A stretch of 64,000 nt of DNA, from NCBI RefSeq assembly GCF_900129195.1, contig NZ_FQUY01000005.1, forward strand, positions 62,001-126,000, given 5' to 3'. Source of the DNA: Desulforamulus putei DSM 12395 (GTDB lineage: Bacteria; Bacillota; Desulfotomaculia; Desulfotomaculales; Desulfotomaculaceae). How positions within the stretch are numbered: the first letter of the stretch is position 1; every line of letters starts with the position of its first letter. A program made the translations under genes and the position numbers. The notes below the pieces were generated by a model. That model saw only the letters and a program-made list of their open reading frames with translations. It did no database searches and had not been told where the DNA came from. Of the stretch, positions 22,854 to 34,324 are shown in pieces.

Positions 22854-22895
22854 TTGAAAGAGGCGGTCTATTTACCGAGACCGTCTCTTTCAATT
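22852..22895. terminator. Long bidirectional terminator overlapping the symporter stop codon
   Basis: GAAAGAGGCGGTCT / AGACCGTCTCTTTC stem with an eight-base loop, flanked by AATT runs. The stop codon of the minus-strand symporter (22868-22870) sits in the loop side, so both genes end inside the same hairpin. Confidence 0.8.
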
Positions 22896-24289
22896 ATTTT
22901 CATGTTCTTTGTGGGGTTGCTATATATGGTCATCCCGCCAATGAAAAGACTTAATAAACTAATCCCCATGCCCAAATACAACGGTTCCACGTGAACCGGC
23001 TTCCAGAAGGGCCAGATGATGGCCGCCGGTGGCGACAGGGCAATGGCCGCCAGGGCTGCCCTTGGTGGGATCTTGCCCGGGTAGAAAACAGCAGCCAATA
23101 AAGGAAAAAATACGGTTACACCCCGCAGGGCCATGGATAAAAAGGCCCATTGCAGGATCAGGGAGTTAAAATTGCTCAAGACCACCAGTAAAACGCCGCC
23201 CGCCACCAGTAAGACCAGCACTCTTGAGATCCGCAACAATTCGTTGTCACAGGCCTCCCGCCGCAACAGTTTTTTGTAAATATCTTGACATAACGTAGTA
23301 CAAACCCCCAGGGTTAAGGAAGCTCCGGTCATGATAAGCGAAATCAGCAACCCGGCCAGTACTACGCCGCCAAACAAGGGGGGCAGGTGATTGATAATAA
23401 ACATTGGCAGGGCCATTGCCCCGTTAATCTCGGGATAGTGAACACGCATAAACATACCGATGACCACACTGGCAGCCCCAATGAAGGGAATTAACAACCC
23501 GGCCAGGTATACCCCGTTTCTGGAGGACCGCACATCCTTACCCGCAAAAACCGCCTGCATGTAAGTCTGGGTTGAAATAAAACCTACTACCACAGAAAAC
23601 ACCGACGCCAGTTCCTTGCTCATGCCCCCTGGGAAAGGACTGAAATACGGAAAAACAGGAAGGTTTTCCTGCAGCCCGGTAAAACCGCCGGCTAACTTGA
23701 GGCTGAAGACTCCGGCCACGCCCAAGGAAGCATAAATTAAAACTGTCTTAAACAGACCTACCAAACTGGTGCCCCAGAATCCGCCAAAGAAAATGTAAAG
23801 AACCATGAAGGCAGTGGCCAGCAGGGCTGCTTCCAGCGAGGTCACGGGCAGCATCACCATTAACAGGGGAATGGCAGCCAAAACCTGCGCAATAATTTGA
23901 ATAAACATGCCCATGGTGGTGTAGATGCTGGACCAGGTAACCGCCTTGGGGCCGTAATATTTACCTAAATACTGCGGAATGGTTTCCACTTCCGCCTGAC
24001 GCATAGGTTTCACCAAAAAGAATCCCATAAACAGGCAGCCGATCCCCGCCCCCAGGGTAAACCATATGCCGCTGAGACCAAATTGGTAAGCCACCTGCGC
24101 CGTTCCCACAGTGGAGGTACCTCCCACAAAGGCGCCAATTAAGGAGCCTGTAACCAACCAGGTGGTTAACTTTCTTCCCCCGACGTTAAAATCCGACGCT
24201 GTTTTTATCAGCCGGAAGGAATATATGCCCACCACGGCAGTTACAGCCAGGGTCATAAGAAAACCAAAATAGTGTTGTGCCGTAATCAT
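22868..24289 (-). CDS. Sodium:solute symporter (SSS) family protein
   Basis: A 473-residue membrane carrier with about 13 hydrophobic segments. The family N-terminus is visible (ASDFNVGGRKLTTWLVTGSL, then GAFVGGTSTVGTAQVAYQFG), as is the Na+-site region QTYMQAVFAGKDVRSSRNG in the middle. This is the pantothenate/proline-type SSS arrangement, but the solute is not clear. It is transcribed alone and divergently from the small gene at 24405. No histidine kinase fusion is present. Confidence 0.88.
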   Translation of the reverse strand: MITAQHYFGFLMTLAVTAVVGIYSFRLIKTASDFNVGGRKLTTWLVTGSLIGAFVGGTSTVGTAQVAYQFGLSGIWFTLGAGIGCLFMGFFLVKPMRQAEVETIPQYLGKYYGPKAVTWSSIYTTMGMFIQIIAQVLAAIPLLMVMLPVTSLEAALLATAFMVLYIFFGGFWGTSLVGLFKTVLIYASLGVAGVFSLKLAGGFTGLQENLPVFPYFSPFPGGMSKELASVFSVVVGFISTQTYMQAVFAGKDVRSSRNGVYLAGLLIPFIGAASVVIGMFMRVHYPEINGAMALPMFIINHLPPLFGGVVLAGLLISLIMTGASLTLGVCTTLCQDIYKKLLRREACDNELLRISRVLVLLVAGGVLLVVLSNFNSLILQWAFLSMALRGVTVFFPLLAAVFYPGKIPPRAALAAIALSPPAAIIWPFWKPVHVEPLYLGMGISLLSLFIGGMTIYSNPTKNMKIIERDGLGK

Positions 24290-24404
24290 GTTGCCATATC
24301 TCCTATTAGTACAGTTTTCTGCAATCCAAAATAGTCTTGCTTTGTAACCTTCCCCGCTTCTCTTGCATATTTTAACACGAGAACGGGTAAAGGAAGTGAA
24401 TTAA

Positions 24405-24587
24405 ATGATCTCCCCTTTCGCCGCCCCATCTGAACTAAAAGAATTCCTGCCGCTCATGACGAAAGATGAGATGGAGGAACTGTTAAAAACAATTAATGAC
24501 TTACTCCGGATAGAACAAGACGGTCAAAAAATTATGCGATTGCTGGATAACCGGGACATTTTGGAAGAAGCCATTGACAACTATTAA
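24405..24587 (+). CDS. Small hypothetical helical protein (60 aa)
   Basis: A 60-residue acidic protein starting MISPFAAPSELKEFLPLMTK, nearly all helix-forming. AAAGGAAGTG precedes the ATG. Start, ribosome binding site and codon use look real, but no family is recognised. The REP-like hairpin at 24613 follows and could end its transcript. Confidence 0.55.
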   Translation: MISPFAAPSELKEFLPLMTKDEMEELLKTINDLLRIEQDGQKIMRLLDNRDILEEAIDNY

Positions 24588-24612
24588 CCTCCCCGCTCCG
24601 AGTGCCTTTTTA

Positions 24613-24691
24613 AAATTCAAGTTGGGGACGGTTCTTGACTTGAATTCGTAATACACGAATTCAAGTCAAGAACCGTCCCCAACTTGAATTT
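24613..24691. repeat. REP-like perfect 36-bp inverted repeat
   Basis: Two perfectly complementary 36-base arms (24613-24648 and 24656-24691) around a seven-base loop. The core is TTGGGGACGGTTCTTGACTT. The GGGGACGGTTCT core is a motif known from dispersed repeats near REP-associated tyrosine (IS200/Y1-like) transposases in Firmicutes. It lies between convergent genes. A shorter relative is at 33131-33164. Confidence 0.8.
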
Positions 24692-24706
24692 CCCCCACTT
24701 GAATTG

Positions 24707-24997
24707 TTATGCCTGGTTGTTTTGGCAGACCTGGAAGGATTCTGGTTGACGGAAATGAATGCTGTCCACGGTAACACCGTGAAGTTCCTTCAGTTCTTGC
24801 TCCATTTTACGGTATTCTTCCTCTGTGGCTTCCATTGTCAGGGTGATAATGCCTCTATCCCTGCTTGGGCTGGGAATACCGTTTCGACATAATATATGAC
24901 TTCCATAACGGGTAATGACTTGCTGCACATCCGGCGCTTTGGTTCCACGTTCATCCACCATCAGGCCCACCACGAAAATATCCTTCTCCTTCTGCAC
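24707..24997 (-). CDS. TM1266-like ACT-domain protein (iron-only hydrogenase system regulator type)
   Basis: A 96-residue protein with the ACT-like pattern of TM1266: FVVGLMVDERGTKAPDVQQVI at the start (without the extension), then YGSHILCRNGIPSPSRDRGI and MEQELKELHGVTVDSIHF. In other Firmicutes this family sits beside [FeFe]-hydrogenase maturation genes. The GTG at 24997, eight bases after AGGAGG, is preferred to the ATG at 25066. No hydrogenase gene is in this window. Confidence 0.8.
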   Translation of the reverse strand: MQKEKDIFVVGLMVDERGTKAPDVQQVITRYGSHILCRNGIPSPSRDRGIITLTMEATEEEYRKMEQELKELHGVTVDSIHFRQPESFQVCQNNQA

Positions 24998-25128
24998 TGT
25001 AAAATCCTCCTTTTTTCTTTCTTCGTTTATTATGTCTGTTTTATGCCTTAAGATTCGCAAGGACATGTGAAAACAGTGTTTTTTCAGGGTTTTACAGATT
25101 ACACTCCCATAAAAAATGCGCCTGTCAC

Positions 25129-26232
25129 TCAGGCGCTGTAATTTTTTCGGAACGTTTTTTGGCAGGCGGCTAAACCTCCGATGTGGTGACAGATGTCATA
25201 ATCGGAATACCCAGCCTTCCTTAAAGGCAGGATGACATTTCTTTCCAGATCGGGCAGATAAGATTTAACTGCCTTAAAATCCCCGTACAGTGTGTATGCC
25301 CCCAGGAAGGCCGGGACCAGGAAAGATTCTACCGCCCGAAAGGCCATCCTCTGCTTGCCGTTAAAAACTATTTCTCCTTCCCCTTCAATAACAGTATAAA
25401 CAAAAAACCTTTCACCCTCTGTATTTTCCTGCATACTGACCCGGACATCATACAGTTCTACAGCAAAGCTCGAACAGGCTGCCAAATATCGGACGGTACA
25501 CTTGTCTCCCTGTGCAATGTGGAGTCCTTTAATTTTACCGGTTGGGCTTGCCTCTTCTGCAAAATGCATGACTTCCAGGGCTCTCTCAATCTGCAGGGGT
25601 CTTTTGGTACCGTCTTCACATACACGGTCATAATCATAAACACGGTACGTGATATTTGAGTTTTGCTGAATCTCCAGCACCAGGAGGCCTTCCCCCAGCG
25701 CATGCACGGTACCCGCAGGGATGTAGACAACATCCCCGGCAGACATCTGAACAGAACGAAGACATTTCTCTAAATCTCCGTCAGTAATGGCTTTTTCAAA
25801 GGTATCTCGTGTTACCCCCGGAGCCAGACCATAAATGATACCGGCGCCCGGTTTTGCCCTCAAGACATACCACATTTCATTCTTGCCGTATGCTTCCCCT
25901 TCACGGGACCTGGCATAGTCATCGTCCGGATGCACCTGCACCGAAAGCCGGTCATTGGCATCAATGAGTTTAACCAGCAGGGGAAATTTAATGGCATACT
26001 TTTCTTCCAGTGCTATTCCTAGCGCCCGTCTCTTGAACTTCTTAAGAAAATGAAGCAATGAAATTCCTTTATAATCGCCGTTGGCAATGGTGCTGAGTCC
26101 GCAGGGGTGGCAGGAAACCTCCCAGCTTTCGGCAATTTTGCCATCGGGTAATTTTCTCCCCAAAAGTTCTAAATTTCTGCCTCCCCAGATATAATTTTTA
26201 TAAACAGGTTCAAACTTCAAAGGATACAACAT
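25129..26232 (-). CDS. manA: Mannose-6-phosphate isomerase, type I
   Basis: A 367-residue zinc enzyme interconverting fructose 6-phosphate and mannose 6-phosphate. Family motifs: YKNYIWGGRNL near the start, SWEVSCHPCG, VKLIDANDRLSVQVHPDDDY (metal ligands QVH), GKNEMWYVL, and IPAGTVHALGEGLLVLEIQQ. It stands after the bL25 gene and its terminator, but its product is the entry step of the mannose-activation pathway encoded upstream (phosphomannomutase, nucleotidyltransferase), so it belongs functionally to that cluster. Confidence 0.93.
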   Translation of the reverse strand: MLYPLKFEPVYKNYIWGGRNLELLGRKLPDGKIAESWEVSCHPCGLSTIANGDYKGISLLHFLKKFKRRALGIALEEKYAIKFPLLVKLIDANDRLSVQVHPDDDYARSREGEAYGKNEMWYVLRAKPGAGIIYGLAPGVTRDTFEKAITDGDLEKCLRSVQMSAGDVVYIPAGTVHALGEGLLVLEIQQNSNITYRVYDYDRVCEDGTKRPLQIERALEVMHFAEEASPTGKIKGLHIAQGDKCTVRYLAACSSFAVELYDVRVSMQENTEGERFFVYTVIEGEGEIVFNGKQRMAFRAVESFLVPAFLGAYTLYGDFKAVKSYLPDLERNVILPLRKAGYSDYDICHHIGGLAACQKTFRKNYSA

Positions 26233-26361: not shown

Positions 26362-26922
26362 TTAGCTCGCAATATCCAGTTCTTTTCCGATGCTGACTAC
26401 AGCCAGGATTTCATCTTCTTCATTGAGAATCTTTATTTCATCATTAACCTTGAGATCTTTCACTGTAATTTTATCCCCGAGTTCTTTGCTTTCCACATCC
26501 ACAGTAATAAACTCGGGCAGCAAATTGACCTTGCCGGCCACCTCCACATCCGGCAAGAACACCTGCAGCAGCAATTTCTTTTCTTCCAACCGGTTCTTGC
26601 CTTTAAACAAAACCGGTATTTTCACCCTGACAGTATCGTTGTCTGTCACTGTCTGCAAATCGATATGCAGAACCTCACCGGTGATAGGATCCCGCTGGAC
26701 CTCCTTGACGATACACTGCTTAATGTGCTCTCCAATTTTCACCTGCACTTTGGCGCCTTCCCGGTGGTTTCTCAACAATCGCAGTAATTTCTTCATTTCA
26801 AACTTGACACAAAGTTCCTCTGCCATTCCTTCTCCATAAATGACTCCCGGCGTAAAACCTTTTCTCCGGGCCTTATTGGCTTTTTCCGTTCTTTCCATGG
26901 CTCTCAGAAGGGATTCACTCAT
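26362..26922 (-). CDS. rplY: Ribosomal protein bL25, long (Ctc/TL5) form
   Basis: A 186-residue 5S-rRNA-binding protein of the large subunit. The N-terminal L25 domain (KANKARRKGFTPGVIYGEG) is followed by the TL5/Ctc C-terminal domain (VKIPVLFKGKNRLEEKKLL, then EFITVDVESKELGDKITVKD). In Bacillus the Ctc form is a general stress protein. The ATG at 26922, eight bases after AAAGGAG, is chosen instead of the frame opening at 27027. Its place at the end of a CIRCE-headed operon fits a stress link, but this is inference. Confidence 0.92.
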   Translation of the reverse strand: MSESLLRAMERTEKANKARRKGFTPGVIYGEGMAEELCVKFEMKKLLRLLRNHREGAKVQVKIGEHIKQCIVKEVQRDPITGEVLHIDLQTVTDNDTVRVKIPVLFKGKNRLEEKKLLLQVFLPDVEVAGKVNLLPEFITVDVESKELGDKITVKDLKVNDEIKILNEEDEILAVVSIGKELDIAS

Positions 26923-27019
26923 ACCATCTACTCCTTTGTTTCTTTTTTGTGCGGGTGCTAAACAACAAGAGTAAATGATGACCGGTTTACAATTGTTGGA
27001 ACAGAACCGTGCAAAGGTA

Positions 27020-28381
27020 TCAGGCAACTTTTAACGGGAATATGGATCGGGCGATTTCCTGCTTGATGGTTTCCAACTGGTCCTGGCTGCATGCTTCACA
27101 CCGGATGATGAGTTCCGGGCCTGTGTTGGAGGCCCGGACAAGCCCCCACCCGTTGGCAAATTGCACCCTGACGCCGTCCACGTCAATAAAGGGATAGCCC
27201 TTGTCTTTAAAATAGTTTTTGGCATGGCTGACATACTGAAATTTCTTGTCTTCCTCGCAGGGAACCCGGATCTCGGGCGTACAGTAGGTTTTTGGCACAT
27301 CCGACAGCAGTTCACTCAAAGGTTTATCGCTGTTAGAAAGGATTCTCAGCAGTCTTGCGGCGGCGTAGAGGGCATCGTCATAGCCGTAATATTCATCTGC
27401 AAAAAACATATGCCCGGACATTTCACCCGTAAAGACCGCATTTAACTCCTTCATCTTGGCTTTAATCAATGAATGGCCTGTCTTGTAAAAGAAAGGCTTC
27501 CCCCCCAGCCGCCGGATTTCATTGACAAGCAGGTCGGAACATTTAACCTCCACAATGGCATCGGCCCCGGGGTATTGGGGCAGAATTTCCCTCCAGAAAA
27601 GGATCATCAGCATATCCCCCCACAGGATGTTGCCCTGCTCGTCCACCACGCCCAGTCGGTCGCCGTCTCCGTCGAAACCAATACCCAGGTCGGCCTTGTT
27701 TTCTTTGACTGCCGCAATCAAGTCCCTCAGATTTTCCGGCTTCACCGGGTCAGGGAAATGGTTGGGAAATGCCGGGTCCGATTCGCAGTACAACGGGATC
27801 ACATCGCATCCCAGCGCCCGGATTACTGTGGGGGCAAAAAGGCCGGCGGTGCCGTTGCCGCAGTCCACCACCACCTTTATCTTTCTGCCTCCCAGGACAA
27901 TTTTCTCTTTCATCATGTTGATGTAGTCTTCAACCGGCCACCGGCAGGTCAACCGGCCGCTACCCTTCTCAAAATCTCCCCGTTCGGCCATTGTTTTTAA
28001 TTGCTGCAGTTCCTCCCCGTAGAGCGTTCTGCCTCCATACTGGACTTTAAACCCGTTATACTTTGCAGGGTTGTGACTGGCGGTGATCATGATGCCGGCA
28101 TTGATTCCGTACAGGTGGGTAGCATAGTAAAAGATGGGAGATATGACCACACCAATGTCTATAACATTGACGCCGGTCTCCAGCAACCCCTTCACCAGAT
28201 GTTCGTGGAGAACCGGAGAAGATTCTCTGTTGTCCCGGCCCACAATGGCGCTGGATTCACCCTTTTGTCTGAGAAAGGTACCGAAGGCCCGACCGATCAA
28301 TGCCGCGTCTTGTACGGTTAAATCTTCGCCAAAAATTCCCCGGATGTCGTATTGCCGAAAAATGCGCTCGTTGACAGCCAT
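27020..28381 (-). CDS. Phosphomannomutase/phosphoglucomutase
   Basis: A 453-residue cytoplasmic alpha-D-phosphohexomutase. The four signature loops are present: FRQYDIRGIFGED at the start, the phosphoserine loop MITASHNPAKYNG (about residue 100), the Mg2+ loop IGFDGDGDRLGVVDE (about 235), and sugar loop FTGEMSGHMFFADEYYG. It converts mannose 6-phosphate to mannose 1-phosphate (or the glucose equivalent). It is in the same operon as the GT4, nucleotidyltransferase and GH130 genes upstream. Confidence 0.93.
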   Translation of the reverse strand: MAVNERIFRQYDIRGIFGEDLTVQDAALIGRAFGTFLRQKGESSAIVGRDNRESSPVLHEHLVKGLLETGVNVIDIGVVISPIFYYATHLYGINAGIMITASHNPAKYNGFKVQYGGRTLYGEELQQLKTMAERGDFEKGSGRLTCRWPVEDYINMMKEKIVLGGRKIKVVVDCGNGTAGLFAPTVIRALGCDVIPLYCESDPAFPNHFPDPVKPENLRDLIAAVKENKADLGIGFDGDGDRLGVVDEQGNILWGDMLMILFWREILPQYPGADAIVEVKCSDLLVNEIRRLGGKPFFYKTGHSLIKAKMKELNAVFTGEMSGHMFFADEYYGYDDALYAAARLLRILSNSDKPLSELLSDVPKTYCTPEIRVPCEEDKKFQYVSHAKNYFKDKGYPFIDVDGVRVQFANGWGLVRASNTGPELIIRCEACSQDQLETIKQEIARSIFPLKVA

Positions 28382-28406: not shown

Positions 28407-29420
28407 TTATTGATATACATCCAGAGCCAAGCAAGCAATAAAATATGAAATGATGCTTTCCGCTCCCTGATTCAGATTGAGGCCCTTTTCCGTAATGCCG
28501 TCGTAACAGCCGCCGGTTTCCGGATCGATCAGGCACAGGCCCTTTGAATTGTAGCCATGGTACCATGCCAAACACTTGCGGGCCCTATCTAAATACCGCT
28601 TGTGGCTGGTAATGCGGTAGGCCTCCAAATAGGCCAGCAGCATTTCACAGGCCTCCAAGGGCTGCTCGTCATACTCCGCTCTTGGCTGGCCTTTTAAGAA
28701 CCAGCCGTGGCAACCCACCGGTTTAAAATACCCTTCGCCAAAAGTGATCCTTTCCAGAAAGGCCAGGCTTTCCCTGGCGATGTCCAGCAGTCTTTGTTCT
28801 CCCGAAACCCTATATGCTGCCAGCAGGGACCACGGGAGTACCGCATTGCTGTATGTCAACCTGTCCTCAAACCAGTTCCAGTTGTCATCTCGGTGCTCTT
28901 CATACTGTTTTGCCAGGGATGCAGCCAAATTCCGCACATGTTCCTCTGTTTCTTGCATATCCAAACAGGTGAGCCCAATGAGGGAATAGGCTTTGGCCCG
29001 GGGCCAGCGGAGGCTTGCAACATGAGGAAGGGCTTTCTGCAGCAGGTACCTGCAGGTGTCCTTGACATTACGGGGGGTTTTGGCGCTGGCCAAAGTATAC
29101 CCCAGGGCCCACAGGCACCTGCCAAAACAATCTTCGGAACCTGACTCTTCCATAAAGTCCCGGTTATAGCCCATGAAATTTTTAAACCGCCCCTCCCTGT
29201 TTTGGGCATTCAGTACAAAGGACAGGTATCGGTACACCAGAGCCAGGTATTTTTCCTGGCCAAACCTTTCATACAACATCACCGCCATAATCAAGGCCCT
29301 AGCGTTGTCGTCGGTGGTGTAGCCCCTAGTGGGGTCGGGAACACCGTATTTGGCATGCTGGAACATCCCTGTGTCATCGGTAAGCCGGAAGATATGAGAG
29401 TCTCTCAAGGGCTGGCACAT
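28407..29420 (-). CDS. Six-hairpin (alpha/alpha)6 glycosidase-like protein
   Basis: A 337-residue soluble protein with repeated amphipathic helix pairs and aromatic/acidic motifs (GYTTDDNARALIMAVMLYE, GSEDCFGRCLWALGYTLA, DDNWNWFEDRLTYSNAVLPW, EYDEQPLEACEMLLAYLEAY). This is the (alpha/alpha)6 toroid of glycoside hydrolases and epimerases. It is regularly encoded beside GH130 and GT4 genes, and here its start overlaps the GT4 stop by one base, so it probably acts on the same mannosyl glycan. The reaction is not known. Confidence 0.75.
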   Translation of the reverse strand: MCQPLRDSHIFRLTDDTGMFQHAKYGVPDPTRGYTTDDNARALIMAVMLYERFGQEKYLALVYRYLSFVLNAQNREGRFKNFMGYNRDFMEESGSEDCFGRCLWALGYTLASAKTPRNVKDTCRYLLQKALPHVASLRWPRAKAYSLIGLTCLDMQETEEHVRNLAASLAKQYEEHRDDNWNWFEDRLTYSNAVLPWSLLAAYRVSGEQRLLDIARESLAFLERITFGEGYFKPVGCHGWFLKGQPRAEYDEQPLEACEMLLAYLEAYRITSHKRYLDRARKCLAWYHGYNSKGLCLIDPETGGCYDGITEKGLNLNQGAESIISYFIACLALDVYQ

Positions 29421-30595
29421 TACACCGCAACCCCGGCTTTCCGGCTCTTTTCCAGTATGTTAAGAAACAGTCTTGTATACTGGTTGGCGATATTCCCCCA
29501 CATCATGGTCTTACCGATACTTAAGGTTTTCTGCTCCATTTCTTTCTTTTTATCCGGGTTCTCCAATACAAACTTGATGCATTTGGCCAGGGAATCGGCA
29601 TCCTCAAACTCTGCCAGCAGCCCCCTGCCGTCGGCCAGCATTTCCCGGGCATAACTGTAAGGAGTGGCTATAATCACCCTGCCGTACCCCACCGCATAGG
29701 CTAGGGTGCCGCTGACCGCCTGGTCTTTGCCCAGGTAAGGGGTCATGTAGATGTCGGACAACTGGAGATAATGAATGATTTCCTCCTTTGTCAGGTACTT
29801 ATTCACAAACTGAACATGATCTCTGACGCCGAGGCGTTCCACCAGGTCCAGCAGTTTTTCCCGGTAGGCCTCCCCGTATTCCCTTTTTACACAGGGGTGT
29901 GTCTGCCCAAGAATCAGGTAAAGGACATCCTTGTGCTCCCGGGCCACCCTGGCCAGGGCTTCTATACCGTATTCCAGGCCCTTTCCCGGGCTGATCAGTC
30001 CGAAGGTACTGATCACCTGCCTGCCCTGCATGCCGTACTTTTCTTTCAGTTTTTCTCTGGACTCCATTACCCTGAAGGGTACTCCGTGATGGATTACCTC
30101 AATTTTGTCGGGCTGTATTTCATAGACCGTCTTTAACAAGTCCACCGTATTCCTGGCCATGGTTACAACCTTCTGACTCCTGGCGCCTAGGGTTTTAAGA
30201 ATCTCCCGTTGTTTCGGCATGGGGTTCGGCAGTACGGTATGTACCGTGGTGATCAGCGGCACCTGCAGTGCGTCAATGAGATCCAGCAGGTACTCTCCGC
30301 ATTCTCCGCCAAAGATACCGTACTCATGCTGGATAACCAGGAGTTCCAGCCCTGAACGGTTGATCTCCCGTGCGATGTCCCGGTAGCTGTTGCGCTCATG
30401 CTGCTGAAGCTCCATCACGACTGGCTCATCATAGTCATACCGGGCATCGCTAACGGCTATAACTTGCGGCCCGTGGAGAAGTCCTGCCCGGTCAAGTTCG
30501 CTCACAAGATCCTGGGTGAAGGTGGCCAGCCCGCACTCCCTGGGCGGATAGGTGCTGAGAAAGGCCACTTTCCCTATCCTGTTCCTTGAAACCAT
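29420..30595 (-). CDS. Glycosyltransferase family 4
   Basis: A 391-residue GT-B fold enzyme. KVAFLSTYPPRECGLATFTQ begins the N-terminal Rossmann half; VIHHGVPFRVMES and ISTFGLISPGKGLEYGIEAL mark the start of the C-terminal half; the nucleotide-sugar region is YLQLSDIYMTPYLGKDQAVS. Given its neighbours, the donor is likely GDP-mannose or another NDP-hexose and the product a mannosylated glycan or solute, but this is inference from context. AAGGAG lies nine bases before the ATG. Confidence 0.88.
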   Translation of the reverse strand: MVSRNRIGKVAFLSTYPPRECGLATFTQDLVSELDRAGLLHGPQVIAVSDARYDYDEPVVMELQQHERNSYRDIAREINRSGLELLVIQHEYGIFGGECGEYLLDLIDALQVPLITTVHTVLPNPMPKQREILKTLGARSQKVVTMARNTVDLLKTVYEIQPDKIEVIHHGVPFRVMESREKLKEKYGMQGRQVISTFGLISPGKGLEYGIEALARVAREHKDVLYLILGQTHPCVKREYGEAYREKLLDLVERLGVRDHVQFVNKYLTKEEIIHYLQLSDIYMTPYLGKDQAVSGTLAYAVGYGRVIIATPYSYAREMLADGRGLLAEFEDADSLAKCIKFVLENPDKKKEMEQKTLSIGKTMMWGNIANQYTRLFLNILEKSRKAGVAV

Positions 30596-30616: not shown

Positions 30617-31660
30617 TTACATGGCCATCGGGTGGCTTACCTGTTCGGTATAAACCGTTTTACGGAACTCCATATTCCTGTGAATCCGGCAGTTGGCAGC
30701 CACAATGGTATCAATCAACCTGGCGCCGCTGTCCACTGTTACTTTGTCCCAAACGATACTGCCGGCAACCTTGCTCCCCCTGCCAATCACACAATGGTTC
30801 CCGATTACCGTGTAAGGACCGATGGTGGCAAAGGCGCCGATTTCAGCATGTTCTCCAATGTACACCGGTCCGATAACCCGGGCATGGGGGTGAATCTTAG
30901 AGTTTTTTCCTGTAAAAATTATGTTGCTGGTATAGTCTGCTTCCGGAATTTTGCACCTGCCGCTTAAAATGTCCTTATGGGCCTGCAGATACTTGGCCGG
31001 CGTACCGATATCCATCCAGTAGGAACCGCCCTTATAGACAGCGATTTTATAACCCTTTTGCAGCAGTGAGGGGTAGACTTCCCGCTCCACCGAAACCGCC
31101 CTGCCGGAAGGGATTTCTCGCAGGACCTCCGGTTCAAAAACATAGATACCTGCATTGATATAATTCGATGTAATCTCACTGGGATGGGGTTTTTCCTTAA
31201 AAGAAACAACATAGTCGTCCCGATCAAACTCAATGACTCCGTACATGGAAGGGTTATCCACCTGTGTTACGGCGATAGTGGCAACGGCTGATTTGCTTCT
31301 ATGAAATCTGATTAGCTCCTCAATATTGATATCACAGAGAATATCGGAATTGAACACAATGAAGGGCCCGTGGAAAAATTTTTCGGTGTTTTTAATGGCG
31401 CCACCGGTCCCCAGGGGAATATCCTCCCGAATATACTCAATTTTAAGCCCCAAACGGCCCCCGTCGCCGAAATATTCCTCAATCTGCTGTGGTTGATAGC
31501 AAGTGCTCAAAACGATTTGTTCAATGCCATATCCTTTTAACTCGGTCAGGGTCCTTTCCAGCAGAGGTCTTGCCATGACAGGCACCATGGGCTTGGGAAT
31601 TTGGTTGGTCAGGGGTCGGAGCCTTGTCCCCCTGCCCCCTGCCAGGAATAACGCTTTCAT
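30617..31660 (-). CDS. Sugar-1-phosphate nucleotidyltransferase (mannose-1-phosphate guanylyltransferase-like)
   Basis: A 347-residue two-domain enzyme. The N-terminal nucleotidyltransferase domain has the signature FLAGGRGTRLRPLTNQIPKP and FIVFNSDILCDINIEELI. From about residue 250 a left-handed beta helix begins (IGPVYIGEHAEIGAFATIGP, TVIGNHCVIGRGSKV). This matches GDP-mannose pyrophosphorylases of thermophiles and Clostridia; glucose or other hexose use cannot be excluded. The ATG at 31660 is favoured because it is seven bases after AAGGGGG. Confidence 0.88.
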   Translation of the reverse strand: MKALFLAGGRGTRLRPLTNQIPKPMVPVMARPLLERTLTELKGYGIEQIVLSTCYQPQQIEEYFGDGGRLGLKIEYIREDIPLGTGGAIKNTEKFFHGPFIVFNSDILCDINIEELIRFHRSKSAVATIAVTQVDNPSMYGVIEFDRDDYVVSFKEKPHPSEITSNYINAGIYVFEPEVLREIPSGRAVSVEREVYPSLLQKGYKIAVYKGGSYWMDIGTPAKYLQAHKDILSGRCKIPEADYTSNIIFTGKNSKIHPHARVIGPVYIGEHAEIGAFATIGPYTVIGNHCVIGRGSKVAGSIVWDKVTVDSGARLIDTIVAANCRIHRNMEFRKTVYTEQVSHPMAM

Positions 31661-31802
31661 ATGCATTCCCCCTTCACAACGTTAACTTTGTTTGCCGTGA
31701 AAACCCGCATAAAAGCCAATTGTCAAAGGTTAAACCCTGTTATCCACTTCATGACAAACATCTCTGCGCCGGTAGAATGCTTTATCAGTGATTTGTTTGC
31801 TG

Positions 31803-32804
31803 TTAAAACTCCTCCTCTTTAGTCTCCGGGCATCTTTTAATATACTCCAGGAGATCGCTCAGGGAAGCGGTGGCCAAGGCAATGCAGGTGTCCGCCCCGC
31901 CATAGTACATCTTGATCATCCCCGTCCGGTTGTCCAGTATCCAACCGCAGGGAAACACCACATCGTCTACGTCCCCTTCCCTTTCGTAATACTCGGAAGG
32001 TCCAAATACCCATTCATCACTTCTTCTTAACACCCGGAAAGGATTTTCTAAATCCAACAGGGCTAGCCCCAGGCGGTAAATGGCGCCGGCGGCGGTTTTT
32101 CTGACGCCGTGATAAAGGATCAGCCAGCCTTCCGGCGTCTCCAGCGGCTGTGCGGAAAGGCCCACCTTATTGGCATCCCACCAGCCTCCCCGGCGGGCGT
32201 TGATTAAAATCTGGTGTTCCCCCCAGTATTTTAAGTCCTCGGATCGTGATATCCAGATATGGGCGCTGGGGGCGTGACTGGCGGGGATCGGCCGGTGGAT
32301 CATCACCCATTTGCCGTCAAACTTGCGGGGGAAAAGCGCTGCGTCTTTATCCTCCGGAGGCATAACCGCCCCCAGCTTTTCAAAGGTTTTAAAATCTTTG
32401 GTCAACGCCAGGGACACCAGGGGTCCTCCCCGGGAATAAGCGGTATAAGCCACAGCCCACTGGTTCAGTTCTTCCATCCAGGTAATCCTGGGGTCTTCAA
32501 TCCCCCATTCTTCCTCGGGAAAAAGGTCCGGTTCAGGCATTAGTGTAGGGGAAGAGTCAATCTGCCAGTTGCTCACGCCGTCTTCGCTGATGGCTTTTGT
32601 GAGGTGAGAAAAACCGCGCCTATCTTCCACCCTGGCCAGCAATAGCACCTTATTTTGATAAACCGTTGCCGCAGGGTTAAACACGGTATTGGCCGGGTAA
32701 GGCCAGTCTTTGGAAGTGAGGATGGGGTTGCGGGGATGTCTTTTAAAGAGTTCCCTGTATGTATTGTTTCCGCTTGTTAACTTGCTTTGAAAACCTTTGC
32801 CCAT
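31803..32804 (-). CDS. GH130 mannoside phosphorylase/hydrolase
   Basis: A 333-residue five-bladed beta-propeller enzyme of glycoside hydrolase family 130, whose members phosphorolyse or hydrolyse beta-mannosides. Motifs: FKRHPRNPILTSKDWPY, FNPAATVYQNKVLLLARVED, WGIEDPRITWM (catalytic Asp), and VWFG-like block WVFGPSEYYEREGDVDDVVF. The ATG at 32804 is preferred to the frame start at 32846 because AAGGAGG precedes it; the spacing is long at 11 bases and the site is buried in a hairpin. It is the first gene of the CIRCE-headed operon. Confidence 0.88.
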   Translation of the reverse strand: MGKGFQSKLTSGNNTYRELFKRHPRNPILTSKDWPYPANTVFNPAATVYQNKVLLLARVEDRRGFSHLTKAISEDGVSNWQIDSSPTLMPEPDLFPEEEWGIEDPRITWMEELNQWAVAYTAYSRGGPLVSLALTKDFKTFEKLGAVMPPEDKDAALFPRKFDGKWVMIHRPIPASHAPSAHIWISRSEDLKYWGEHQILINARRGGWWDANKVGLSAQPLETPEGWLILYHGVRKTAAGAIYRLGLALLDLENPFRVLRRSDEWVFGPSEYYEREGDVDDVVFPCGWILDNRTGMIKMYYGGADTCIALATASLSDLLEYIKRCPETKEEEF

Positions 32805-32808
32805 AAAT

Positions 32809-32869
32809 AAAAAAGCCTCCTTCAACCAATTAAAAATGCTGTGCATTTAAAATCAGTGGGAGCTTTTTT
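32809..32869 (-). promoter_or_regulatory. Leader hairpin pairing the ribosome binding site of the GH130 gene
   Basis: On the minus strand AAAAAAGCTCCC (32869-32858) can pair with GGAGGCTTTTTT (32820-32809), with one G-U pair and one mismatch, and an inner hairpin AAATGC-ACA-GCATTT lies in the loop. The pairing covers GGAGG, the Shine-Dalgarno of the GH130 gene. It could act as an RNA thermometer, as an attenuator because the T-run resembles a terminator, or simply as a terminator-like structure. Confidence 0.55.
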
Positions 32870-32883
32870 AATATGGTTTATTG

Positions 32884-32910
32884 TTAGCACTCATGGTTAA
32901 TGAGTGCTGG
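32884..32910. promoter_or_regulatory. CIRCE element (HrcA operator)
   Basis: TTAGCACTC, nine bases, GAGTGCTgg. The consensus is TTAGCACTC-N9-GAGTGCTAA; 16 of 18 arm bases match. It lies just downstream of a sigma-A promoter reading into the mannosyl operon, the classic position for HrcA repression. Confidence 0.85.
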
Positions 32911-32917
32911 TAATTAA

Positions 32918-32947
32918 ATGCTATTTTATGATTTTGTTTCCTGTCAA
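32918..32947 (-). promoter_or_regulatory. Promoter of the mannosyl-glycan operon
   Basis: On the minus strand TTGACA (32947-32942), 18 bases, then TAGCAT (32923-32918). The CIRCE operator begins eight bases past the -10, over the transcription start. Confidence 0.6.
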
Positions 32948-33205: not shown

Positions 33206-34324
33206 TTAGTGTTTACCGGTATTGAGTTCTTCCAGTTCGTGCTCTTTATAAACGGTGATGGGAATAGGTTCTTCCAGGGAGCGGCCGGGTTCGTATTCAA
33301 AACGATCCTGGTTGGCTTGGGACAGGGCTTGGAACATCAGGCCCACGGGAATATCCATGGGGCAGGCGTTTTCGCACTGGCCGCAACCCACACAGGAGAG
33401 GCCCATATGGTTCAACCTGGTCAGGTGGAATAAAACGGTATCAGTGGGCAGTTCGATGGCGCCCTTTCTCCTGGCATATTCCATGTATTTGTCGCCGTTA
33501 TGGTCGAAAATGGGACCGGCGGACACGCATTCACGGCAGAAGCAGATGGGACAGGCCTGTCGGCAGTTTTGGCATTTGATGCAGGTGGCCAGCACTTCGG
33601 CCAGTTTTTCCATATCAGACACGGCACTCTTAAATTCTGAAACAGCCTTGGCTTTAGCCTGTTTCTTCTCTTCCGCCAGTTTTTCCAGCAGCTTGACCCG
33701 GGTGTCGGGCGTATTGGCGGATTCCAGACCGGCCACACCGGACAGGTCAACACTGTCCTTGGCGGCTATTAGCAGGTTGCCGCCCATACCCAGCCAGCCC
33801 AGGACAATGTCCGCATTGCCGGCTTCGGGATAGGCACATACGGTGCAGGCCCGGCGCAGCTCGACTACGGCGGGGTTCTTGCCGTCGGCGGCCTGGCTTA
33901 CCCATTTCCTGGCATCCACTTTATTTTGCTTTACCATCTCGGCGTAGTCCTTGGCGGCAAAGGTGCCTGCACAGTCTACGCCGATGATGACCAGGTTATC
34001 CAATTTGGCCTGCTGCAGTTTAACCAACTCGTATAAGGCACGAAGTTCACAGGAACGCAGCACCACAGCCACCTTTTCCGGCAGGTTGCGGGAAAGATTG
34101 GCCACCAGTCTGGCAGTATTAAGGCCGCTGACCGGAGCAAAGGGGTTGGCAGCGCCGAACATTTCCGGGTTTTTGATCAGGGCAGGAACAACATTGGTTT
34201 TAGCTGCAACCTCACGGGGGACTAAAACAGCACTAACCTTCCCGGAGGTAATCAATGACTTGAAAAACTCCTGAACGGTACCGAGGGTGTCACCACCGCT
34301 TGGTTTTAACGTGTAAGTTTTCAT
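33206..34324 (-). CDS. FrhB/FdhB-like iron-sulfur flavoprotein subunit (F420 hydrogenase/dehydrogenase beta family)
   Basis: A 372-residue protein. The N-terminal half is the FrhB-like flavin domain (VAVVLRSCELRALYELVKLQ, IIGVDCAGTFAAKDYAEMVK). The C-terminal half has CIKCQNCRQACPICFCREC and, about residue 320, CVGCGQCENACPMDIPVGLM, for two or more [4Fe-4S] clusters. The family hands electrons between a flavin and partners such as F420, formate dehydrogenase or NADH. As the last gene of the Hdr operon next to mvhD it is the likely input module for a soluble donor. The true donor is unknown. Confidence 0.85.
   Translation of the reverse strand: MKTYTLKPSGGDTLGTVQEFFKSLITSGKVSAVLVPREVAAKTNVVPALIKNPEMFGAANPFAPVSGLNTARLVANLSRNLPEKVAVVLRSCELRALYELVKLQQAKLDNLVIIGVDCAGTFAAKDYAEMVKQNKVDARKWVSQAADGKNPAVVELRRACTVCAYPEAGNADIVLGWLGMGGNLLIAAKDSVDLSGVAGLESANTPDTRVKLLEKLAEEKKQAKAKAVSEFKSAVSDMEKLAEVLATCIKCQNCRQACPICFCRECVSAGPIFDHNGDKYMEYARRKGAIELPTDTVLFHLTRLNHMGLSCVGCGQCENACPMDIPVGLMFQALSQANQDRFEYEPGRSLEEPIPITVYKEHELEELNTGKH

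Follow-up and report, generated by a model that had tools for sequence, protein, structure and literature searches.

HrcA is commonly regarded as a dedicated chaperone repressor, and groESL and dnaK are the usual targets of the CIRCE/HrcA system. What a CIRCE-like inverted repeat is doing in front of a run of mannose-related genes, and what these genes would produce, are the questions raised by a locus of Desulforamulus putei DSM 12395, which we analyzed within a stretch of 64,000 nucleotides (64 kb, hereafter the window). The repeat lies at 32884-32910 (TTAGCACTC-ATGGTTAAT-GAGTGCTGG on the + strand) and had been read in the original prediction as a CIRCE operator sitting over the start region of a promoter that leads into a GH130 gene; both parts of this reading held up. 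The repeat agrees with the consensus TTAGCACTC-N9-GAGTGCTAA at 16 of 18 arm positions, the two mismatches being the final two bases, and with up to three mismatches allowed it is the sole CIRCE match in the window, against a shuffle expectation of 0.01 per 64 kb. Genome-wide (3.1 Mb) there are three places with the pattern and none with a reversed control pattern, and the other two sites are perfect and located ahead of groES-groEL (L001) and of hrcA (L002), the latter gene being present at 423-1466 on the minus strand of its locus with its own CIRCE at 1501. The predicted HrcA target set of this genome thus comprises groESL, the hrcA operon and the GH130 operon, a trio of CIRCE sites that was also recovered in a genome of the same genus (G005) and in one of another family (G069).

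The placement of the operator, which is given without strand (TTAGCACTC-N9-GAGTGCTGG, 32884-32910), follows from a pattern search, conservation and promoter geometry, and marks it as a predicted binding site for HrcA at the start of transcription. The best-scoring promoter-like site of the region, a predicted sigma-A promoter on the minus strand, consists of a -35 hexamer TTGACA (32942-32947) and a -10 hexamer TAGCAT (32918-32923) separated by an 18-nt spacer; it ends 7 nt before CIRCE, which puts the predicted +1 at the CIRCE edge. The upstream neighbour gene has the same orientation and ends at 33206, which leaves GH130 as the only possible target of the operator among the called genes. Judged against relatives, the GH130 start codon is probably at 32804 (MGKGF...) and not at 32846.

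Seven genes follow one another on the minus strand. They encode a GH130 enzyme of 333 aa (31803-32804, Pfam PF04041, E 4.9e-56), a sugar nucleotidyltransferase with a left-handed beta-helix tail, which is a probable mannose-1-phosphate guanylyltransferase (30617-31666, PF00483, E 4.2e-54), a GT4 glycosyltransferase (29420-30595, PF00534/PF13692/PF13439) that is probably GDP-mannose-dependent, judging the donor from the operon, a six-hairpin (alpha/alpha)6-barrel protein (28407-29420, recognized by Foldseek from an AlphaFold2 model with pLDDT 92), a PgmG-like phosphomannomutase/phosphoglucomutase (PMM; 27020-28381, PF02878-PF02880 and PF00408), the Ctc-type ribosomal protein bL25 (26362-27027, TIGR00731 above cutoff), whose start codon may be further in, and a class I mannose-6-phosphate isomerase (PMI; 25129-26232, TIGR00218 above cutoff). 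A terminator-like hairpin (GCGCCTGAGTGACAGGCGC ATTTTTT, 25118-25136, minus strand) stands at the operon end. The gene content given in the original prediction was confirmed from GH130 through bL25; it had omitted PMI, which completes the path from fructose-6-phosphate to mannose-1-phosphate within the operon. Downstream and outside the operon (22868-25066) are a gene for a TM1266-like hydrogenase regulator and a sodium:solute symporter-like gene.

Conservation of the operator was assessed with GH130 orthologues gathered from the same order, from the genomes of 84,980 named species and from additional taxa at the level of order, class and phylum (a plasmid search within the species itself was empty), by searching for CIRCE (≤ 2 mismatches) within 450 nt upstream of GH130 at the 121 non-redundant loci with enough upstream DNA. 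It was present at 22 of these, all of them within a single Bacillota clade that makes up 62 rows of the GH130 tree and where the site, perfect or near-perfect, occupies the same place before the orthologous gene in several major lineages (22 of 62 non-redundant loci), among them Pseudobacteroides cellulosolvens, Thermoclostridium caenicola, Clostridium sp. LS, an Oscillospiraceae MAG, Propionispira and other genomes of the class Negativicutes. Identity across 21 sites (one near-copy omitted) was 94% in the arms, 39% in the spacers and 48% in the nine flanking bases. A recognizable TTGACA/TATAAT-type promoter with 16–18 nt spacing stands before 21 of the 22 sites, with CIRCE 4–15 nt past the -10 (the L043 promoter scores only 7/12), and TTGACA or TTGACG is retained ahead of most relatives' CIRCE sites. 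As a typical genome of the order contains two to four CIRCE sites in total, chance placement before GH130 is excluded. The recurrence in relatives that the original prediction had asked about is found: the site is in the same place in G005, G069 and the 22 Bacillota loci. It has been lost in other relatives that have the operon, for example in G075, and Pelosinus fermentans likewise has the operon but no CIRCE. No CIRCE was detected within 450 nt of GH130 at 40 of the 62 Bacillota loci, several of which have the whole operon, so CIRCE control of the GH130 operon is not universal; by parsimony the CIRCE label needs nine changes on the GH130 tree, at least five of them forced by well-supported branches, which indicates that the site was repeatedly gained or lost before this gene.

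Some other repeats were noted in the course of this survey. About 80 nt upstream of GH130, L049 has a CIRCE-like repeat in a decayed state, its spacer being 10 nt long (TTAGCACTC...AACTGCTAA), which may be a CIRCE site on its way out. Three Sporomusaceae loci (L050, L055, L058) have another inverted repeat in CIRCE's place just past the promoter (ATTGTTAG-N6-CTAACAAT in L050). Two genomes of the same order (G052 and G054) hold 19 and 11 CIRCE-like sites, many of which belong to a variant ending in GTCTGCTAA or GTCTGCCAA in both orientations, and these may be a repeat family or a second CIRCE-derived operator.

The window operon itself encodes no chaperone and is not adjacent to groESL. In Thermoclostridium caenicola (L046), one CIRCE in a 13-kb locus precedes GH130, nucleotidyltransferase, GT4, six-hairpin, groES and groEL, and in Pseudobacteroides (L044) the order is CIRCE, GH130, nucleotidyltransferase, GT4, six-hairpin, PMM, groES and groEL; both genomes have an additional groESL elsewhere behind its own CIRCE (L136 and L135). 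At two further loci (L191, L192) groESL and an operon whose gene order is identical to that of the window operon are transcribed divergently, with a perfect CIRCE on each side, and at L043 a single CIRCE is situated between GH130 and a divergent nucleotidyltransferase-GT4-six-hairpin-bL25 run, bL25/Ctc being found within the corresponding operon in the window, L043, L191 and L192. Outside Bacillota, where the search upstream of GH130 found no CIRCE, the cluster has groESL close by in two MAGs, one of Chloroflexota (L073) and one of Bacteroidota (L111), and in Syntrophaceae (L088) and Desulfatitalea (L096), with DnaJ and HSP20 genes (L088) or two HSP20 genes (L096) between GH130 and groESL; a Pfam sweep of 219 neighbouring proteins from non-Bacillota loci for additional heat-shock genes turned up no more than a few HSP20, along with RelA/SpoT. 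Of the 80 loci from the survey of 84,980 genomes, 6 contain groEL, whereas a density of 1.5 copies per 4 Mb would give 0.33 (P ~1e-6, a rough value as the 80 loci are not all independent). With groESL linked to the cluster across lineages, its tie to the heat-shock response does not rest on the operator alone.

Two further neighbourhoods were observed. RelA/SpoT-family genes are close to the GH130/GT4 cluster in L088 and L096, as well as in two or more other loci outside Bacillota, which suggests a tie of the cluster to the stringent response. In the genome of the window (L002:1-402), as in L207, L208 and L209, hrcA is followed by a thermosome-like chaperonin of group III type that is only ~37% identical to GroEL, which suggests that a second chaperonin is encoded in the hrcA operon.

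As to the product, the GH130 enzyme scores 190 bits in Pfam (cutoff 26) and has a predicted five-bladed propeller fold (pLDDT 87; Foldseek E 6e-30 to TM1225). TM1225, RaMP2 and Uhgb_MP (GH130 group 2) are the closest solved structures by sequence and fold, but these beta-1,4 enzymes (YD and NRN at the aligned positions) are without the Glu beside the catalytic Asp and without the NKD/DKD lysine of beta-1,2 enzymes. The window enzyme has both, as Glu103-Asp104 (GIEDPR) and Lys153 (EDKDA), and the aligned Glu and Lys are alike in the beta-1,2 enzymes Lin0857 and Uhgb_MS (GIED, NKD). K153 is retained in all 121 GH130 rows, E103, D104 and R171 in 120, K213 in 115 and R160 in 71. The published beta-1,2 specificity residue is a lysine, Lys199 of BT3780 (PMC4599007), to which K153 would correspond, and D104, R171 and K213 would be the published catalytic Asp and basic phosphate-binding residues. 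With these residues the enzyme is best read as a beta-1,2-mannoside phosphorylase. Enzymes of family GH130 work in both directions and consume or release alpha-mannose-1-phosphate (PMC4264767), which is the product of the operon's PMM. No NCBIfam equivalog name was reached above cutoff for either GH130 or the nucleotidyltransferase; the latter probably makes GDP-mannose, given that in NCBIfam it fits best to NF052502, the model of a mannose-1-phosphate guanylyltransferase (score below cutoff), and that in related operons a bona fide ManC replaces it, positioned after the six-hairpin gene. The six-hairpin protein, with 7tem as best Foldseek match followed by the AGE (N-acylglucosamine)/cellobiose 2-epimerase family, stays with GT4 across phyla and is fused to it in some. 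Neither a transporter nor a flippase is encoded in the operon, which favours a cytosolic product. The original prediction had left the choice between a mannosylated protectant and an envelope glycan; the lack of an export function in the operon favours a cytosolic protectant or reserve over the envelope glycan. In many genomes of the order (e.g., G106:C174:14263-21272), a GH130 of 320 aa and a protein of ~1200 aa that contains a GH130-like domain form a conserved pair unrelated to the CIRCE operon.

The same enzymes could also serve mannoside salvage or GDP-mannose supply behind a functional CIRCE, with HrcA only boosting a precursor for a glycan or glycoprotein made elsewhere, an explanation that we consider unlikely. 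In Thermoanaerobacter X-514, the genes Teth514_1785-1796 likewise bring together GH130 enzymes, a mannose-1-phosphate guanylyltransferase and a GT4 mannosyltransferase, and this cluster has been read as GDP-mannose salvage (PMC4264767), a use that reactions running both ways would allow. It differs, however, in having an ABC importer, a GH5 enzyme and two GH130s ~32% identical to the window GH130, whereas the window operon has PMI, PMM and CIRCE and no importer. The operon has neither a transporter nor an extracellular hydrolase, and PMI and PMM make salvage unnecessary. The persistence of GT4 and six-hairpin genes beside GH130 across phyla suggests a dedicated product, and a salvage function would not lead one to expect groESL as a neighbour.

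Between CIRCE and the start codon, the minus strand also encodes a structured 5' leader (32809-32869), recognized from folding z, compensatory changes and model R1, with a long hairpin (AAAAAAGCUCC...GGAGGCUUUUUU) that contains the Shine-Dalgarno (SD) sequence GGAGG (32820-32816). Its fold z is −4.2 without and −5.3 with CIRCE, and the leaders of relatives have compensatory changes at four pairs in group A8 and at six in the clostridial group A9. Negativicutes have a different, highly conserved leader, whether CIRCE is present or absent, and only one compensated pair was found in that set, covariation being weak because the leader sequence hardly varies. Model R1 had the window leader as its sole strong genome match (E 3.2e-15; the weak second match was the reverse strand of the same leader), while model R2, built on the Negativicutes leader, found the L163/L194 leader, which was absent from its training set (E 1.8e-8). 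An Rfam search with the leader returned no family at or near gathering score. The leaders did not come together as one family across the lineages, three groups (A2, A8, A9) aligning apart. A leader shared with groES was discarded, for the groES leader of the same genome (AAAAAACC...GGGUUUUUU) is similar by eye only and has a fold z of 0.57, no better than shuffles. An RNA thermometer is not supported: the SD is sequestered, yet in silico the leader does not open in the heat-shock range, the mean unpaired probability of the window leader going from 0.20 (25 °C) to 0.23 (65 °C). We conclude that a conserved, structured leader absent from Rfam probably forms a second control layer beside CIRCE.

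This leader could even be the main regulator, attenuator- or riboswitch-like and answering a sugar or another signal, with CIRCE as a minor addition. It is kept in Negativicutes and Clostridia without CIRCE, and heat alone would not open it, as in most of the leaders tested in silico the pairing of the SD persists to 65 °C. In L067, L151, L041 and L044 the closing stem is apart from the ribosome-binding site and in several loci it ends in a terminator-like U-run, which points to transcription attenuation; L151 (G191) has an entire copy of the terminator that is separate from the ribosome-binding site, a naturally occurring hint of an attenuator. The three leader groups are not mutually alignable and hence do not support a single common ligand, and a leader-based scheme leaves the recurrence of both CIRCE and groESL without an explanation, so that we hold this primacy of the leader to be improbable. 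That the palindrome is a chance occurrence, a relic or a mere RNA hairpin at the mRNA 5' end, outside HrcA control, is very unlikely: the window copy does have two mismatches, many operon-bearing relatives are without CIRCE and the mRNA would form a hairpin in its first 27 nt, but the low chance expectation, the same location at 22 loci and the presence of hrcA in the genome speak against it, and the exact consensus arms are kept while the loop varies, which fits a protein site and not a generic hairpin, whose arms could covary.

We thus consider it probable that the seven genes form a heat-shock operon of class I (HrcA/CIRCE) that yields a mannoside in the cytosol, a beta-1,2-oligomannan similar to Leishmania mannogen being the most likely product. 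At normal temperature, HrcA bound to CIRCE at +1 would block the sigma-A promoter. HrcA repression is lifted once unfolded protein occupies GroESL; heat or unfolded protein would draw GroESL away and leave HrcA inactive, and the operon would be transcribed along with groESL and hrcA. PMI and PMM would then convert fructose-6-phosphate to mannose-1-phosphate, the nucleotidyltransferase would turn this into GDP-mannose, GT4 would build a mannosyl primer or chain, and GH130 would reversibly lengthen or phosphorolyse beta-1,2-mannosides, such that the polymer would be built under stress and recovered afterwards as mannose-1-phosphate. The leader between CIRCE and the start codon would add a second, post-initiation control, and the release of HrcA would couple mannoside synthesis to protein damage.

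Compared with the known class I regulon (groESL, hrcA-grpE-dnaK-dnaJ), the window has the same operator over a sigma-A promoter start and belongs to the same genome-wide site set, and groESL shares the apparent GH130 operon in two relatives; the difference lies in the targets, which are chaperones there and glycan-metabolism genes here. The Leishmania mannogen enzymes of family GT108 (MTPs) resemble the window enzyme in that a five-bladed propeller makes and phosphorolyses beta-1,2-mannan, and the enzymes of this polymer are reported to be essential for thermotolerance and thought to have been transferred from Gram-positive bacteria (Sernee et al. 2019 cited in PMC7817646; PMC8950772). This parallel makes a protectant role plausible. 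The window enzyme was not assigned to GT108 itself, as 6q50 appeared at Foldseek rank 42 (E 5.5e-9, 13% identity) against ~1e-29 to 1e-20 for GH130 structures. An open-access literature search, with RegPrecise and most subscription papers outside its scope, returned no HrcA target of this kind, a mannoside operon linked to groESL and preceded by a structured leader; the operator and the enzyme families are already known, and the HrcA-controlled mannoside operon is, provisionally, apparently new.

Taken across the loci surveyed, these observations suggest that a mannose-based polymer is part of the heat defence in many distantly related bacteria. More tentatively, and as a possibility that we would not yet call likely, a GH130/GT4/six-hairpin module found near groESL across phyla may produce a heat-induced beta-1,2-mannan, a bacterial mannogen, within the HrcA chaperone regulon; the thermotolerance polymer of Leishmania would then be the eukaryotic equivalent of a system of heat protection that is older in bacteria. 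If true, the bacterial heat-shock response would gain a carbohydrate arm through a conserved HrcA target that produces a sugar polymer, present in several Bacillota lineages and in some of them physically fused to groESL, a widespread and uncharacterised GH130/GT4/six-hairpin cluster would gain a function, and the link to the thermotolerance role of Leishmania mannogen would become directly testable.
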